Shown here: positions 19,577 through 56,252 of the stretch, piece by piece
Position numbering within the stretch: position 1 is the first letter of the stretch
How the letters are laid out: every line of letters begins with the position of its first letter
Assembly: GCF_000702545.1 (NCBI RefSeq)
Contig: NZ_JNIO01000002.1
Span: 682,001 to 746,000 of the forward strand
DNA from: Selenomonas sp. AB3002
Lineage (GTDB): Bacteria; Bacillota; Negativicutes; Selenomonadales; Selenomonadaceae
Direction of reading: 5' to 3'
DNA length: 64,000 nucleotides
The notes under the pieces: model-generated
Seen by the model: only the letters and a program-made list of their open reading frames with translations
Told to the model about the DNA's origin: nothing
The model's database searches: none
Program-made: the position numbers and the translations under genes

Positions 19577-19647
19577 GATGTTTCATAGTGGCGGAGTGGA
19601 GAGGATTCGAACCTCCGCACCAGTTACCCAGCCTAACGATTTAGCAA
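19551..19647 (-). repeat. direct repeat, tRNA-Ser copy of 97-bp att-like sequence
   Basis: Partner of 17611-17707 (95 of 97 identical). It spans the anticodon loop to the terminator of the complete tRNA-Ser gene. The two copies bound the ATPase/nuclease gene. Confidence 0.85.
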
Positions 19648-19679
19648 ACCGTCCTCTTAAGCCACTTGAGTACCACTCC
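19589..19679 (-). tRNA. tRNA-Ser(GCT)
   Basis: Ninety-one nt with acceptor stem GGAGTGG/CCACTCC, anticodon stem-loop ACGGT-TTGCTAA-ATCGT (anticodon GCT, reading AGC/AGU), a long class II variable arm, T loop TTCGAAT and encoded CCA. It is the last gene of the rRNA operon. Its 3' half is duplicated at 17611-17707. Confidence 0.95.
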
Positions 19680-19694
19680 GTTATGAAATTTAGA

Positions 19695-19770
<76 letters not shown>

Positions 19771-19775
19771 ATGAT

Positions 19776-19853
19776 ATGGGGCGACTTATGGGGGTCGAAC
19801 CCATGCATGCTGGAGCCACAATCCAGTGTGTTAACCACTTCACCAAAGCCGCC
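19776..19853 (-). tRNA. tRNA-His(GTG)
   Basis: Acceptor stem GCGGCTT/AAGTCGC with the extra 5' G(-1) opposite C73 that marks histidine tRNAs, anticodon loop TTGTGGC (anticodon GTG), T loop TTCGACC, encoded CCA. It follows 5S rRNA directly. Confidence 0.94.
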
Positions 19854-19860
19854 ATCAAAA

Positions 19861-19974
19861 CCAGCAGCTTCCTATCCTCCCAGCCCGTCTCCAGGCAAGT
19901 ACTTTCGGCCTCTAGATGCTTAACTACTGTGTTCGGAATGGGAACAGGTGGATCCATCTAGGCATCGCCACTGG
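19861..19974 (-). rRNA. rrf: 5S rRNA
   Basis: About 114 nt on the minus strand. It contains the conserved CCACCTGTTCCCATTCCGAA and GAACACAGTAGTTAAGC segments and complementary ends (CCAGTGGCGA...GCTGCTGG). It follows the 23S gene after a spacer of about 185 bp that contains a hairpin around AAAATTCACTTCGTGAATTTT. Confidence 0.93.
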
Positions 19975-20159
19975 ATATTCAGTTGAAAGATTGCTCTTTC
20001 AAAACTATACAGAAGAATAATTTGTATTGAACACTCTAGGCCTCTTGTGCTTTGCGAGCTAAGTTTTGTCGGATCGTAAAATTCACTTCGTGAATTTTGC
20101 ATAAGCGATTCGCTACGCTTTGCGCGTCGCTTCGCTCCTTCAAACCGTGCTCTCTGCTT

Positions 20160-23079
<2,920 letters not shown>

Positions 23080-23273
23080 AAAATAAGCAACTAAGTTCAT
23101 CTGTTTCAGATGTCTATGCTTTTGAATCCTAAAATGTTCGTTCAAACCAATTGTTACCTTGGTTGAAATTGATACATTTCATTCTTCTGTGTAGTTTTCA
23201 AAGATCAATTAGAAGGTGTTGTACCTTCAAAACTAGACAATGCAAAACCAGATGCTAACGACCTAGGAATAAT

Positions 23274-24842
<1,569 letters not shown>

Positions 24843-50679: not shown

Positions 50680-51408
50680 CTATTGCAGCCCTTGTTGCTT
50701 CCGCATCAATTCGTGCATATAATGCACCACTCCCAGCCAGTTATCCGGATGGATCATGTCCAAGTGCTGCTTGTCGTGACGGCGGGCCAGGTAGAATTCC
50801 AGCAGGCGAGGATAGTTGCTCAGGGCAGACTCCTTCACATACAGCAGGATATTCTGCTTGTATTCCACCTTTATCTCATTCTCTCCCCAAATCTGCGGAC
50901 GGATGCAATCCAGGCAGACGTAGTTTTCATCTGCAAAGAACTTGGCCCAGTAAGACTGCCATTGCTCGTTGATATGGTTCGTGCCCCCCTGCAGGGGCAC
51001 GGCAGCGGAAAAGAAAACCATATCGGAAAGGGCAGTCAAATCATGGATAAAAGTAGGAGCACGTTTGGCAGAAAGGTGCTCCGCCACTTCCAGGCTCACA
51101 GCCAGGTCGAAGCGCTGACCACCATTGGTGATGGATTCATTTTCCAAGTCGGCCTCGAAGAATTCTTCCTTGTCGATATAGAGCATATCCTTTTGGACAT
51201 AGGAACCATCCACCCCCGCTACTTCTGCCCCATGCTGTTTGAACACAGACAGCCATGTGCCCAGACCGCAGCCAACGTCTACTACTGTCTTTGGCTTTGG
51301 AATATAGTTGAAGAGTACAGGTATTGTCAGTTCTGCTGAGCGATAGGAACCGTCCTTTTGAGCACGATAAAAGTTTTCATCATAAGGAGTATTATCCACT
51401 GGAATCAT
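50680..51408 (-). CDS. class I SAM methyltransferase
   Basis: A 242-residue enzyme with VVDVGCGLGTW near residue 41 (SAM-binding motif I), an acidic residue in AGVDGSY (motif II) and DLAVSLEVAEHL near residue 100. The substrate is unknown. It is the last gene of a GT8-GT8-methyltransferase group downstream of flagellin, so methylation of a glycan attached to flagellin or to the surface is a reasonable guess (inference). AGAGG is close to the ATG. Confidence 0.88.
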   Translation of the reverse strand: MIPVDNTPYDENFYRAQKDGSYRSAELTIPVLFNYIPKPKTVVDVGCGLGTWLSVFKQHGAEVAGVDGSYVQKDMLYIDKEEFFEADLENESITNGGQRFDLAVSLEVAEHLSAKRAPTFIHDLTALSDMVFFSAAVPLQGGTNHINEQWQSYWAKFFADENYVCLDCIRPQIWGENEIKVEYKQNILLYVKESALSNYPRLLEFYLARRHDKQHLDMIHPDNWLGVVHYMHELMRKQQGLQ

Positions 51409-51445: not shown

Positions 51446-52633
51446 TCAAGCCTCTCGCAAAATCTTCGCATCCTGCCCACCATCACGATAGAGGAATATA
51501 TTGCCGTTCATAAAGTGAACACCTTCGATACAGCCACACTCTTCCAAGTGTTTTTTTATATTCTCAAATGCTTCCGGCTTGATAAAGAAAAGAAGTATTT
51601 CATCTGGCTCTAAGCGCAATCCCTGTTTATCAAACTCCTTCAAAGTGAGGAACTTCTCCTTATCTTTCAACATCATCATTTTAGTGAGTTTCTCTTTTTC
51701 AGATTCTTCACTTACAACAACACGATGCATACCGGCAATAAAGTTAGCATAGCCAAGCAGCAATGAACGACTAGACTGATGTATATGCCGAGCTATATTA
51801 GCTAAAAAATCCGCATTGCACCAAGGTGTCTTAGCAAGATGCTCCAAAAACAGACGATGGAAATTATTTACTGCATCTATGGCATAGCGCTGTCCGGCAT
51901 AGTGATAGATGCGTTCCTCCACATTCTCCCGCCTATCAGCAAATTCCTGCATTACCAGCGTATTGTATTTCTCTGGCAATATACGGCAATCCTTGCCAAA
52001 GAAATAATTCAGCACATCCTGATCCAAATAGTCCACCAATTTCTTCTTACGGAGGAATTTCAGGCCACGCTCCAAAACATTTTCTTCTTTTCTAAACTTT
52101 TCCAAATCAAGCAATAATACACCTGCATTAAAATACCGCTCTTCAGGATAAAGGCCTCTTTTTACCATCACACTGTAATGTTCCTGCTGTATGATTGTAT
52201 CAGGGGCGGCAGCCAATCCATTTTTACCCGTTTCTTCCTCCCAAAGCTCCTTTATATCCATATTAACAATTGTATCACCATCAAGATAAATTACCCTGTC
52301 AACTCGCTCCAAAGCTTCACCTATTAAAAGACGATACCACGTAGCCAAGCTGACCCCTGGCTTCAAATGCTGTTTCAGCCATTCAAAATCATCTTTCAGA
52401 TCTGCGAAACGTTTTTTATACAGTCTCTCGAAATCATAAAACACTATCTGCTGACCATAATCCCGCACCATCTGCATCAAATAACGACGATTATCAGTCG
52501 AAAGAGTATAGTCATGCAAAAAGTGCACCGTCACCCATTCCTTGGTATGCTCAAATATGGAACATATAGATGCTCCAACAAACTTGGTATATGTCCCTTT
52601 TTTATCTGAAACTGCATAGCAAACATGTATCAT
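51446..52633 (-). CDS. GT8 glycosyltransferase
   Basis: A 395-residue retaining transferase of the GT8 family: MIHVCYAVSDKKGTYTKF at the start, YLDGDTIVNMD with the metal-binding DxD near residue 102, FNAGVLLLDLEKF near 153 and the YHYAG segment near 245. The extra C-terminal about 110 residues are not part of the GT8 core and are shared with the neighbour. GT8 enzymes of this type add glucose or galactose. The ATG at 52633 follows AGGTGG. It starts 12 nt after the neighbouring GT8 stop. Confidence 0.9.
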   Translation of the reverse strand: MIHVCYAVSDKKGTYTKFVGASICSIFEHTKEWVTVHFLHDYTLSTDNRRYLMQMVRDYGQQIVFYDFERLYKKRFADLKDDFEWLKQHLKPGVSLATWYRLLIGEALERVDRVIYLDGDTIVNMDIKELWEEETGKNGLAAAPDTIIQQEHYSVMVKRGLYPEERYFNAGVLLLDLEKFRKEENVLERGLKFLRKKKLVDYLDQDVLNYFFGKDCRILPEKYNTLVMQEFADRRENVEERIYHYAGQRYAIDAVNNFHRLFLEHLAKTPWCNADFLANIARHIHQSSRSLLLGYANFIAGMHRVVVSEESEKEKLTKMMMLKDKEKFLTLKEFDKQGLRLEPDEILLFFIKPEAFENIKKHLEECGCIEGVHFMNGNIFLYRDGGQDAKILREA

Positions 52634-52644
52634 CTTCAGCCACC

Positions 52645-53895
52645 TCACATAACAAGGAAGATTCGATACTCGTCTAATAGTCTGGTAGGATGAGGAATGA
52701 TAATGGACTTGCCATCAATATAATCTTCCCATTCCTTCCAGCCTGCCTCATCTAATTTTACCTTCAATTCTGGGAAGCTGTTCATAAAAAACACATAAAT
52801 ATGTGTTCCCAATTCGTATGGAAGATTCAAACCTTTCTTCCAGCCATCATCCATAGCCAAATATGGTTCTTCATCAGACAGCATAAACATCTCCCGAAGC
52901 TGCTTCTCATCTTTCTTTGGCCCCACAAAAACCCGTTTACTCCTGGCCCAGGCCGCTGAAGCCTTACGATTTCTCTCAACACACTTATTCAGTTCACCTG
53001 CCAAAATATTCCTGGTGACAGCGTAGCTCTTGCAAATAAATTCAGCATCACACCAAGGGGTTTTGACGAAAGCTTCATAAAAAATTCTATCACGCGGCTC
53101 TTCATAATTATACCTTAAAGTGCGCCCCATATAGTGATAGATACCTTCTACAGGTTCCGGGCTCCCCCACTCCCTGTCCCAGGATTGAAGAATATTATAA
53201 TTCCAAGGAAGATGTAGGAAATCTCTAGCAAAGAAATAGTTCAAAATATCCTGATCGAAGAAGCGACATTCTTCCTCGTGCTGCACAATGAACCGCAGTC
53301 CCGGCAGAAGAATTTCCCCCATATTACGCATCTTCTCCAAGTCCATAATCAGTACACCAGAGTTGAAGCAGGTATCAAAATCCGTCCAGCTGTTTTTGAA
53401 CAGATAGAGTTTTTCGTCAATTGACCTGTCTATCTGCTTCTGATAATGCTCCATCAATGTACGCTCAGTCACAGCCCCCAAAGGGTTGCCATCAAGAAAA
53501 ACCTCCCAGAACTTTCTGATATCCATGTTGACAATGGTATCAGCATCAAGATAAATAAGACGTTTCACATCTTGGGGCAACAAAATAGGGGCCAAAAGAC
53601 GATATAGCGCTGCTGGGGTGTAGTAATCCGTATCTACAGCTCGCTTAAAGATTTCTCTGGCCTCAGCCAATAGATCCTTGCATTCCTCTGCTACGTTGTA
53701 AAAGAAAATCTGCTGGCCATAAGTACGAGTCAGTTCGACAAAGTAATTGCGGTTCTTTTCCGTAAGGGTATCGTCATGCAAAAGATGTATGGTAACCCAG
53801 GAATCCGTGCGCTCAAAAAGGGAGCACATAGAAGCGCCAATATATTTGCTATATGTACCGTTCTTATCCGTCATAGCATAGGAGACATGCACCAT
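52645..53895 (-). CDS. GT8 glycosyltransferase, paralogue
   Basis: A 416-residue paralogue of the gene after it: MVHVSYAMTDKNGTYSKY, YLDADTIVNMD with the DxD near residue 128, FNSGVLIMDLEKM near 185 and YHYMG near 267. The C-terminal region (about 300-416), which is absent from the GT8 core, resembles that of its neighbour. The ATG at 53895 has GGGAGG 8 nt upstream; a start at 53928 is possible. The order flagellin - GT8 - GT8 - methyltransferase suggests glycosylation of flagellin (inference). Confidence 0.9.
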   Translation of the reverse strand: MVHVSYAMTDKNGTYSKYIGASMCSLFERTDSWVTIHLLHDDTLTEKNRNYFVELTRTYGQQIFFYNVAEECKDLLAEAREIFKRAVDTDYYTPAALYRLLAPILLPQDVKRLIYLDADTIVNMDIRKFWEVFLDGNPLGAVTERTLMEHYQKQIDRSIDEKLYLFKNSWTDFDTCFNSGVLIMDLEKMRNMGEILLPGLRFIVQHEEECRFFDQDILNYFFARDFLHLPWNYNILQSWDREWGSPEPVEGIYHYMGRTLRYNYEEPRDRIFYEAFVKTPWCDAEFICKSYAVTRNILAGELNKCVERNRKASAAWARSKRVFVGPKKDEKQLREMFMLSDEEPYLAMDDGWKKGLNLPYELGTHIYVFFMNSFPELKVKLDEAGWKEWEDYIDGKSIIIPHPTRLLDEYRIFLVM

Positions 53896-53971
53896 CCGCG
53901 CATCCTCCCCAATCCGCTTGCGATTCATTATCCCACCCCGCTTTTAGTAATCAAACACAGCTTCACGATTT

Positions 53972-54199: not shown

Positions 54200-56029
54200 T
54201 TACTGCAACAGGCTCAGCACGCTGGAGCTGGACTGATTGGCTTGGGCCAGCATACTTTGGGCGGCTTGCAGGAGGACGTTATTCTTGGTGTACTCGGTCA
54301 TTTCCTTGGCCATGTCTGCATCACGAATGGTAGATTCGGAGGCTTGGACATTCTGACTGGAGAGAACGAGATTTGCTGAAGTCATTTCCAGGCGAGCTTG
54401 GACAGCACCAATATCAGTCTGCTGGTCGAGAGCTTTCTGCAAAGCATTGTCCAGCACGTTGATAGCAGCATTCGCATTCTTCTGGGTTGCAACGCTGATG
54501 GTTTCACCCGTAGAAGCTTTCAACCCCAAAGCCTCGGTGCGCATATCCGTAAGACCTATGCGAATGGACTGATTCGCCTTGGTGCCTACCTGGAGGGTGA
54601 TGGCATTGTCATTGGATTTATTGACCGCCCTCACGGATTCGTTAAAATCATCCAGCACGGCGTTGACGGACTTCTTTACCTGGCCCTTCGAATCCTTCAC
54701 ACTGAACGTGATGCCGGAAATCTGGAATCTGGTACCAGCAGAACCAGAAGTGATGGTGATGGCCTTCTCACGGTTAGCGGTGTAAACCGTGTCACCAGAC
54801 GCAGCCTTGCCTACTACGTCGCTGGCATCTACGCTTAGCTTATAAGGTATCAACTCGCCTACGGCCTCGCCAAGAGTGGAAGCAGCGGTGGAAAGGGCTA
54901 CGGAAAGAACTGTAGAAGCTGAACTGTACGCGGAATTCCTTACTGTAGCCGCCGAAGATATGCTGGAAGACATAACCGCAGAAGCCGATGCCTCTGTTGA
55001 TGAGTATGCGCTCACAGCAGATGCATACACTGCAGATGCTGAATTATAGTTTGCATTGTATGTAGATCCACCAGTAGGCGATGCTGCCCAGTTCAAAATA
55101 TCAGTAATACTCGCATTTGGATTTTGACTATGCCACACCGAATAAGCCGAGTCGTACAACGAATTGTTAGTAGACATAGCAGCATATGCAGAATTCATCG
55201 TACTCACCGTATTCTGCACGACACCATTGTAGGTAGACGATGCATTGGCAACAGACGAGGCGTACGTACTACCAGCTTGACTATACGAAGAAGAATAAAT
55301 CGAATTAGCCTGCGCTTTGGACGAATCATACACGCTATAAGCCGAAGCCGCCGCGGGACTATTCCTAGTATACGGCTCACTAGCCTCAATCAATGCACTG
55401 TCCAATGTGGTATTTTTATCAATATCAATATCCACACTATAATTGCGCCCTTGAATGACATAAGAAATTGTCAGCGTATCAGTGGTCTGAATATTGAGCC
55501 TCTCACCATTGCGGTTCTGCAGATCTATCAGCTTGGTAGCGCCATTGGTGTCCTCATGCAGGCTCTGATTGGTCATAGACGTCTTGGTCGCCGACCCCTT
55601 AGCCATCTTGCTGCCGTCCACCAGCGTCTTCCCATTGTAGGTGATAAGTGCATTATCATCAATCTGGTCTATGGACTGGTCAAGTTCCTTCTGGATGGCA
55701 GCGCGGTCGGAATCTGTGTTGCTATCGTTGGCGGCATTGATAGCCTTTTCCTTCATGGTCTTGAGGATATCCACGGTGGAGCTTACCGCACCCTCTGCCA
55801 CTTTCATCATACTCTGGCCATTCTGCGCATTCTGGTCCGCCTGGTCCAGAGAGCGCACCATGACCCTCATGCGTTCAGAAATGGCGTAGCCCGAGGCGTC
55901 ATCTGCGGCAGAGTTTATCTTCATGCCGCTGGAGACCTTCTTCAGGCTTTTCGCCAGCGCGGCGGAGTTCGCGTTCAATGTGTTGAGCGTGTTCACCGCC
56001 GACATGTTGTTCTTTACAACCATTGCCAT
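54200..56029 (-). CDS. fliC: flagellin with hendecad-repeat variable domain
   Basis: A 609-residue flagellin. The conserved ends are clear: N-terminal AMVVKNNMSAVNTLNTLN and SSGMKINSAADDASGYAISE, C-terminal MAKEMTEYTKNNVLLQAAQ and LAQANQSSSSVLSLLQ. The middle carries an insertion of about 155 residues (232-387) rich in Ser, Ala and Tyr. It is built of 11-residue units such as SVYDSSKAQAN, SIYSSSYSQAG, STYASSVANAS and STYNGVVQNTV, with a break around HSQNPNASITDILNWAAS. Hendecads favour right-handed coiled coils, and the many Ser/Thr are possible O-glycan sites. The ATG at 56029 lies 10 nt after GGAGG. A sigma-28-type promoter lies 160 nt upstream. It forms the filament outside the cell. Confidence 0.95.
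   Translation of the reverse strand: MAMVVKNNMSAVNTLNTLNANSAALAKSLKKVSSGMKINSAADDASGYAISERMRVMVRSLDQADQNAQNGQSMMKVAEGAVSSTVDILKTMKEKAINAANDSNTDSDRAAIQKELDQSIDQIDDNALITYNGKTLVDGSKMAKGSATKTSMTNQSLHEDTNGATKLIDLQNRNGERLNIQTTDTLTISYVIQGRNYSVDIDIDKNTTLDSALIEASEPYTRNSPAAASAYSVYDSSKAQANSIYSSSYSQAGSTYASSVANASSTYNGVVQNTVSTMNSAYAAMSTNNSLYDSAYSVWHSQNPNASITDILNWAASPTGGSTYNANYNSASAVYASAVSAYSSTEASASAVMSSSISSAATVRNSAYSSASTVLSVALSTAASTLGEAVGELIPYKLSVDASDVVGKAASGDTVYTANREKAITITSGSAGTRFQISGITFSVKDSKGQVKKSVNAVLDDFNESVRAVNKSNDNAITLQVGTKANQSIRIGLTDMRTEALGLKASTGETISVATQKNANAAINVLDNALQKALDQQTDIGAVQARLEMTSANLVLSSQNVQASESTIRDADMAKEMTEYTKNNVLLQAAQSMLAQANQSSSSVLSLLQ
54869..55336 (-). repeat. 11-residue repeat tract in flagellin
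   Basis: About 13 imperfect units of 33 bp each, coding for Ser/Ala/Tyr-rich hendecads. The DNA units are diverged, so the tract is probably not newly expanded. An about 25-residue linker interrupts it. Confidence 0.8.
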
Positions 56030-56191
56030 TGTTGACACATCCTCCCTGGTGGGCAGCCACAGGGCCGCCTAGTCAAACATTCTCAGTGGCCCCGGCCCTG
56101 CTGTCCCTGCGGACCCGAGGCTCATGCAGCCTTGCCCTTAAAGGGCGGTGGAAGCCCCGCCGCCCTTATCTGACATATATTTCTATCCTAT

Positions 56192-56217
56192 ATATCGTAA
56201 GTTTTTGGGATTTCTTA
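56192..56217 (-). promoter_or_regulatory. sigma-28/sigma-D-type flagellin promoter
   Basis: TAAG (56214-56217), 15-nt spacer, ACGATAT (56192-56198) on the minus strand. This fits the TAAA-N15-CCGATAT consensus. The leader (about 160 nt) has a GGGCGG/CCGCCC hairpin near 56130-56165. Confidence 0.8.
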
Positions 56218-56252
56218 AGAGGGAGGAGAAAAATTTCTCAAATATATTTTGC

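Follow-up and report, generated by a model that had tools for sequence, protein, structure and literature searches.

A Selenomonas flagellin with a predicted serine-lined hendecad hairpin in its variable domain and adjacent GT8 glycosyltransferase genes

Few protein regions are known to vary as much as the outer domains of flagellins, whose role is in many cases unclear. In flagellins of the FliC type, the Flagellin_N and Flagellin_C ends enclose a variable middle (D2/D3); for solved outer domains, the accessible parts of PMC8931119 mention beta-sheets. Here, we analysed a window of 64,000 nucleotides of Selenomonas sp. AB3002 (contig NZ_JNIO01000002.1, positions 682,001 to 746,000; plain coordinates below refer to this window). 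It encodes a flagellin that has the same two ends and a variable middle, and paralogues in the same genome have other middles. It differs from FliC-type flagellins in the middle, where it has a predicted helical hairpin built of 11-residue repeats and lined with serine. In our literature search, with most subscription journals outside its scope, we found no paper that combines hendecads with flagellin, and no hendecad or serine-lined coiled-coil flagellin domain, including in the accessible parts of PMC8931119, PMC12445082, PMC8306008 and PMC7018530. The protein is a flagellin whose outer domain differs from those described in the literature examined.

Coiled-coil stalks of the NadA type are intermolecular trimers. 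Hendecad (undecad) coiled coils, for example that of Neisseria NadA, have in common with our protein an 11-residue period and hydrophobic residues at every third to fourth position (PMC6191539, accessible parts). In contrast to NadA, a single chain is predicted to double back on itself in the flagellin rod, and the outer surface of the rod carries Ser and Thr rather than charged residues. Ala-rich helices with an 11-residue repeat are also found in the Maxi type I antifreeze protein of the winter flounder, which is eukaryotic and ice-binding; its structure (4ke2) was found by Foldseek with E = 0.35 and a TM-score of 0.45, that is, below significance, and we see no sign of a relation.

Serine-rich repeat adhesins have accessory GT8 enzymes. 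Like the rod flagellin, these adhesins are surface proteins rich in serine and encoded next to GT8 genes, the substrate of the GT8 enzymes next to the flagellin being putative; to our knowledge, the adhesin repeats are neither hendecad helices nor located on flagella. Flagellin glycosylation islands are known in other bacteria, and they resemble our locus in that glycosyltransferases and a methyltransferase lie beside a flagellin gene. Unlike in these islands, we found no Maf-type gene in our genome, and one of the GT8 genes (GT8a) co-occurs with the serine-rich rod. The length of such a rod can change in steps of 11 residues, and its surface chemistry is seemingly tied to one linked enzyme. 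This would make the rod flagellin a simple testable system for the role of surface sugars on the filament, a question that the natural contrast between GT8-bearing and GT8-lacking relatives of a single genus opens to direct testing.

The flagellin gene, its 11-residue tract and the predicted fold

The flagellin gene occupies 54200..56038 (-), as defined by its open reading frame and Pfam matches. It encodes 612 residues from a GTG codon or 609 residues from the ATG at 56029; for the flagellins of the relatives the ATG start was used, as in the 609-residue version. Pfam identified both terminal domains of a flagellin, namely the N-terminal D0/D1 part (Flagellin_N, PF00669, residues 8-144, 55607..56017 (-), E = 6.6e-34) and the C-terminal D0/D1 part (Flagellin_C, PF00700, residues 527-611, 54206..54460 (-), E = 8.3e-21). 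Upstream of the gene, the alignment and the sequence define a promoter, TTAAG ... CGATAT (56191..56218 (-)), which we take to be of the flagellar sigma-28-like type and in which CGATAT is kept in all 12 orthologues. The ends conserved with the paralogues and this promoter suggest that the product assembles into the filament.

A preliminary description of this DNA had placed about 13 units of 11 residues at 54869-55336 (residues 235-390) and had seen them as a replacement of the usual variable domain. We delimited the Ser/Ala/Tyr tract by autocorrelation at lag 11 to 167 residues (residues 229-395, 54854..55354 (-)). The period is real: identity at lag 11 is 0.301 compared with 0.137 in shuffled sequences (z = 6.5; none of 2000 shuffles was as high), a second peak is seen at lag 22 (z = 3.7), and six control stretches from the same protein and two relatives are flat at lag 11 (z from -0.67 to 0.93). 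The shuffles and the control stretches of the same proteins rule out a chance repeat caused by low complexity. The tract consists of 26.3% Ser, 7.8% Thr, 20.4% Ala and 8.4% Tyr, with 4.8% charged residues. In the first arm, Tyr recurs at a fixed position of the unit, as proposed, through the initial four units and less regularly beyond them. Furthermore, the flanking parts of the variable domain are common with the paralogues, so that the tract was inserted into this domain instead of replacing it.

At the DNA level, Tandem Repeats Finder reported no 33-base repeat at the tract in the window, which argues that the repeat is maintained at the protein level; a DNA satellite was therefore rejected as the origin of the tract. 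In the orthologue from genome G149, the same program found a 33-base tandem repeat within the first arm (L026:1555-1644, 2.7 copies, 85% matches). Units can thus arise by duplication, and this one may well be a recent case.

We predicted the structure of residues 221-400 with AlphaFold2, using an alignment of three sequences, namely the tract and its counterparts from the loci L030 (Selenomonas sp. ND2010) and L031 (S. ruminantium Z108). The resulting model (mean pLDDT 87.6, pTM 0.67) has two long helices (residues 8-85 and 104-174 of the fragment) with a short helix between them, and no globular beta domain appeared. The first arm is a predicted helix of 78 residues (55124..55357 (-)), also present in the full-length model, and the second arm a predicted helix of 71 residues (54857..55069 (-)); the tip of the hairpin (55070..55123 (-)) is non-repeated and comprises the short helix as well as the prolines of the tract. 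What had been described as a single rod of 13 units is therefore better described as two arms, the second folded back along the first: the repeat stands, with about 6-7 units in the first arm and about 6 in the second, and the single run is broken by a non-repeated tip of about 18 residues. The model of the full-length protein is poor (mean pLDDT 55.1); the two helices recur in it (225-302 and 319-393), flanked on either side by beta strands (166-202 and 424-456).

Note that AlphaFold2 may favour helices in Ala-rich sequences. We analysed the spacing of hydrophobic residues (VILMFYW) in the first and last 70 residues of each tract, where a hendecad corresponds to a period of 3.667 and a heptad to 3.5. 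Pooled over the 12 orthologues, the period peaks at 3.65 in the first arm and at 3.66 in the second, that is, hydrophobic residues return every 11/3 residues along the helix. Individually, the signal at 3.667 reaches p < 0.05 in the first arm of 9 and in the second arm of 11 of the 12 orthologues. Proline is found at 0.44-0.59 of the tract length in most of the 12 orthologues; the tracts of G001 and G005 have none, and the exceptions are one Pro in G153 (at 0.25) and two in G003 (at 0.29 and 0.76). Helical packing of the hendecad type, as it had been proposed, is borne out by the predicted hairpin, by the periods in both arms and by the Pro residues mostly found at the tip. In summary, an alpha-helical hairpin is a well supported fold for the tract, predicted by modelling and backed by sequence periodicity.

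Insertions and deletions among the orthologues could be a further sign of an antiparallel hairpin. In G005, 11 residues are missing in each arm, in the multiple as well as in the pairwise alignment. In G001, 11 residues are missing in the first arm in both alignments; in the second arm the multiple alignment alone gives 11, and the pairwise one gives -5 and -4. In the remaining orthologues, the indels differ from 11 residues in length and mostly lie close to the tip, and we regard the paired deletions of 11 residues as suggestive only.

Among known structures, VIA-align found long helical hairpins (Smc arms, the cytoplasmic domain of chemoreceptors and YscO) that cover most of the model with Z of 9-11, a range common for long helices in general. 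Foldseek gave no match to the tract model at E of 0.001 or better, 4ke2 and SH3BP5 being high-ranking entries below significance, and the best sequence relative of the tract in the PDB had E = 0.15. Absence from such lists is not evidence of a new fold.

Next, we asked how residues are distributed between the inner and outer faces of the helices. The faces were set from VILMFWA only, each residue was left out of its own test, and z values were obtained from 60 shuffles. In the ten orthologues that have a GT8 gene nearby, Ser accounts for 9.7% of inner and 29.7% of outer positions (z = 6.3), Ser and Thr together for 17.8% and 43.2% (z = 7.3), and charged residues for 6.9% and 11.4% (z = 2.2). 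Tyr shows the opposite distribution, accounting for 13.0% of inner and 1.7% of outer positions (z = -5.8), and it stays on the inner side if the face is set from VILMFW (14.6% vs 1.9%). Glycogenin-like glycosylation of Tyr had been considered since the enzymes belong to GT8; it is disfavoured, as a Tyr on the buried core face is unlikely to be a sugar site.

In two further orthologues, G002 and G003 taken together, Ser drops to 1.2% inside and 7.3% outside, and charged residues reach 19.3% inside and 26.8% outside. In G003 alone, charged residues make up 20% of outer and 29% of inner positions, which means a less clear separation of its two faces. Over the whole tract, Ser amounts to 5.4% in G002 and 2.8% in G003 compared with 13-26% in the ten Ser-rich rods, and charged residues to 23.4% and 26.6% compared with 5-15%. 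The composition of the flanks does not differ between orthologues with and without GT8a.

Relatives and neighbouring glycosyltransferase genes

A search with the tract gave matches at E of 0.01 in 10 of 189 genomes of the family, one of them (G075) weak. A profile of nine rows (A1) finds 11 of the 189 genomes at 1e-4 and, across the class, 11 of 380 genomes, confined to 2 of 102 genera; the orthologous flagellin of G002 is missed by this profile. Sought in other flagellins, the rod is thus present as an insert in 12 orthologues from two Selenomonadaceae genera. Ten are Ser-rich (our own genome G000 as well as G001, G005, G148, G149, G153, G156, G162, G163 and G166), and two are charged (G002 and G003). 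The strongest signal is at lag 11 for 10 of the 12; in G001, lag 7 has z = 3.81 and lag 11 has z = 3.78, and in G005 the signal at lag 11 is weak (z = 1.75, p = 0.062). In a tree built from the flanks, G002 and G003 are nested beside the GT8-bearing G001 (98/95). The contrast between GT8 and charge therefore represents one evolutionary switch and not ten independent cases.

A phage origin of the flagellin was rejected. A tblastn search of phages with the whole protein gave 11 records, in all of which identity stayed under 60% and coverage of the query under 80%. In viral contigs there are five flagellin loci, and the tract is absent from the three whose open reading frames were read (L032, L033 and L036).

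Three genes lie downstream of the flagellin. The first, which adjoins it, encodes the GT8 glycosyltransferase GT8a (427 residues, 52645..53928 (-); assigned by the Pfam domain Glyco_transf_8, neighbourhood and distribution), followed by a second GT8 enzyme, GT8b (400 residues, 51446..52648 (-); Pfam and neighbourhood), and by a methyltransferase (242 residues, 50680..51408 (-); Pfam), which shares 52% identity with a methyltransferase of the main flagellin and glycosyltransferase cluster in this genome. An orthologue of GT8a stands beside the flagellin in all ten Ser-rich loci, as seen from open reading frames in the window and from tblastn for the other nine. These nine are 72-89% identical to it and located 0.1-0.6 kb away in eight cases and 1.4 kb away in G166. 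The G149 orthologue of GT8a is split between two reading frames (L044:5347-6623) and the rod is still Ser-rich; the split may be due to a frameshift, to an error in sequencing or to phase variation of the gene.

Across the 189 family genomes, GT8a scores at least 512 bits in ten genomes and at most 329 bits in all others, and these ten are exactly the genomes with a Ser-rich rod. A glycosyltransferase gene is thus both adjacent to the flagellin and inherited together with it. G002, which is 99% complete, has no GT8a match at 1e-10, and on its contig of 213,690 bases other genes occupy the place after the flagellin. G003 has one partial match with 31% identity; its genome is fragmented and the contig reaches about 285 bases beyond the flagellin gene, so the missing neighbour is partly a question of assembly.

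Other enzymes could also act on flagellins. The Maf-type flagellin glycosyltransferase (PF01973) had no match in G000 and was present in 3 of 13 genomes searched. As Maf is one route among several, its absence is compatible with glycosylation by other enzymes. GT41-type (OGT-like) enzymes were found in all 13 genomes, including those without GT8a. They can therefore not be the distinguishing factor, and genomes that lack GT8a may still glycosylate their flagellins.

In the main flagellar cluster of our genome, three tandem flagellins are followed, at C2:527.5-537.3 kb, by GT8 genes, a methyltransferase, a GT41-type and a GT9-type enzyme; on their other side are fliD and a flgL-like gene. This arrangement ties GT8 and the methyltransferase to flagella. 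Since the GT8 genes of this cluster adjoin three flagellins without a rod, GT8 is not limited to rod-bearing flagellins and may decorate another part.

Readings of the rod

In the reading that we prefer, the tract would be a helical hairpin whose two helices comprise some 12-13 eleven-residue units in all. The helices would pack via a face of Ala, Tyr and aliphatic residues, be joined by the tip and stand out from the variable domain of a flagellin that forms part of the filament. The outward face is lined with Ser and Thr and has few charges, and the adjacent GT8 enzymes and methyltransferase would build O-linked sugars on these Ser and Thr, possibly after initiation by a GT41-type enzyme. 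With 1.5 A per residue of helix, the filament would bear a brush of sugar-bearing rods of about 11 nm. Masking or spacing of the filament surface would be the likely benefit, resistance to proteases or phages being further candidates. That GT8 enzymes of this kind occur only in relatives with a Ser-rich rod suggests such a sugar-bearing coat on the propeller. The earlier guess of glycosylated rods has in this way gained support from the adjacent and co-distributed GT8 genes, with the rods now folded back; this support is genetic and amounts effectively to one evolutionary switch. A surface coiled-coil rod that serves as a scaffold for O-glycans on a flagellin seems to us, on balance, probable. 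We are more tentative, with a probability of about 0.42, about the complete reading, in which filaments of some Selenomonadaceae are coated with intramolecular hendecad coiled-coil hairpins that expose to the solvent a regular array of Ser and Thr, O-glycosylated by a dedicated GT8 pair and methyltransferase, and in which the rod survives loss of the enzymes with its surface rewritten in charge, so that sugar and charge would be interchangeable for keeping the rod soluble.

The helical hairpin could also be bare, its Ser and Ala forming a neutral coat of low adhesion or low antigenicity, with the GT8 enzymes acting elsewhere on the flagellin or on another polymer. The GT8 genes beside the rod-less flagellins would fit this, as would G149, where a Ser-rich rod persists with a split GT8a; the exact match between GT8a and the ten Ser-rich rods, its absence where the face is charged and the restriction of the composition shift to the rod, with unchanged flanks, make it rather doubtful. 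Alternatively, the rods of neighbouring subunits could associate in bundles and make up an outer sheath round the filament core, with the hendecad face between subunits. Outer domains of another, unrelated type form such sheaths in certain enteric and soil bacteria, and the reading would be compatible with glycosylation. Long hydrophobic stripes with Tyr and Ala are what one would expect of it, and dimerising outer domains are known on filaments (accessible parts of PMC8931119), but a single chain of the model already has two helices that can pair with each other, and we consider the sheath unlikely. Finally, the tract could be of low complexity, disordered or beta-forming, and the helices an artefact of Ala and Ser, for which the shallow alignment behind the model leaves some room. 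The hydrophobic period shared by both arms and the mostly central Pro residues speak against it, and so do G002 and G003, which keep the 11-residue period (z = 4.54 and 3.12) in a charged, less repetitive-looking sequence; we therefore hold it to be very improbable.

Other flagellins and the leader

Several other flagellins were seen along the way. The three tandem flagellins of the main cluster are paralogues of the rod flagellin located at C2:537-542 kb; in the matching stretches they share 59-72% identity with it, and their middles are shorter and different. A flagellin of 648 residues (L011:294-2237, C7:175-177 kb of our genome), in which Pfam names only the flagellin ends, has the stretches HELTHAVMG and then EGAAELVHG in its variable domain. 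HExxH-type motifs in this domain are described for proteolytic flagellins, the flagellinolysins (PMC5595980, accessible parts). A scan of the flagellin at 54200..56038 found no HExxH metalloprotease motif, which sets it apart from the flagellinolysins. Flagellins of about 1000 residues with large variable domains are encoded at L013 and L014 (C2:499-502 kb and C8:2096-2100 kb), and in L030 and L031 such a flagellin directly adjoins the rod flagellin on its upstream side. GT41 genes give up to 16 matches per genome, where one gene can give two, and some lie in frames of 1100-2000 residues; many are found at G002:C42:25-45 kb, there near a flagellin, and in similar places in relatives.

In the leader, no Rfam family matched at the gathering score, and with a fold z of -1.28 a riboswitch was rejected. 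The leader (56030-56200 (-)) spans about 160 bases from the sigma-28-like promoter to the start codon. It contains a GC-rich hairpin, GGGCGG...CCGCCC, followed by TTT, which recurs in several orthologues and, judging from its sequence, could be an attenuator or a stabiliser. Elsewhere in the window, a complete rRNA operon with tRNAs is located at 19592-24842 (-).
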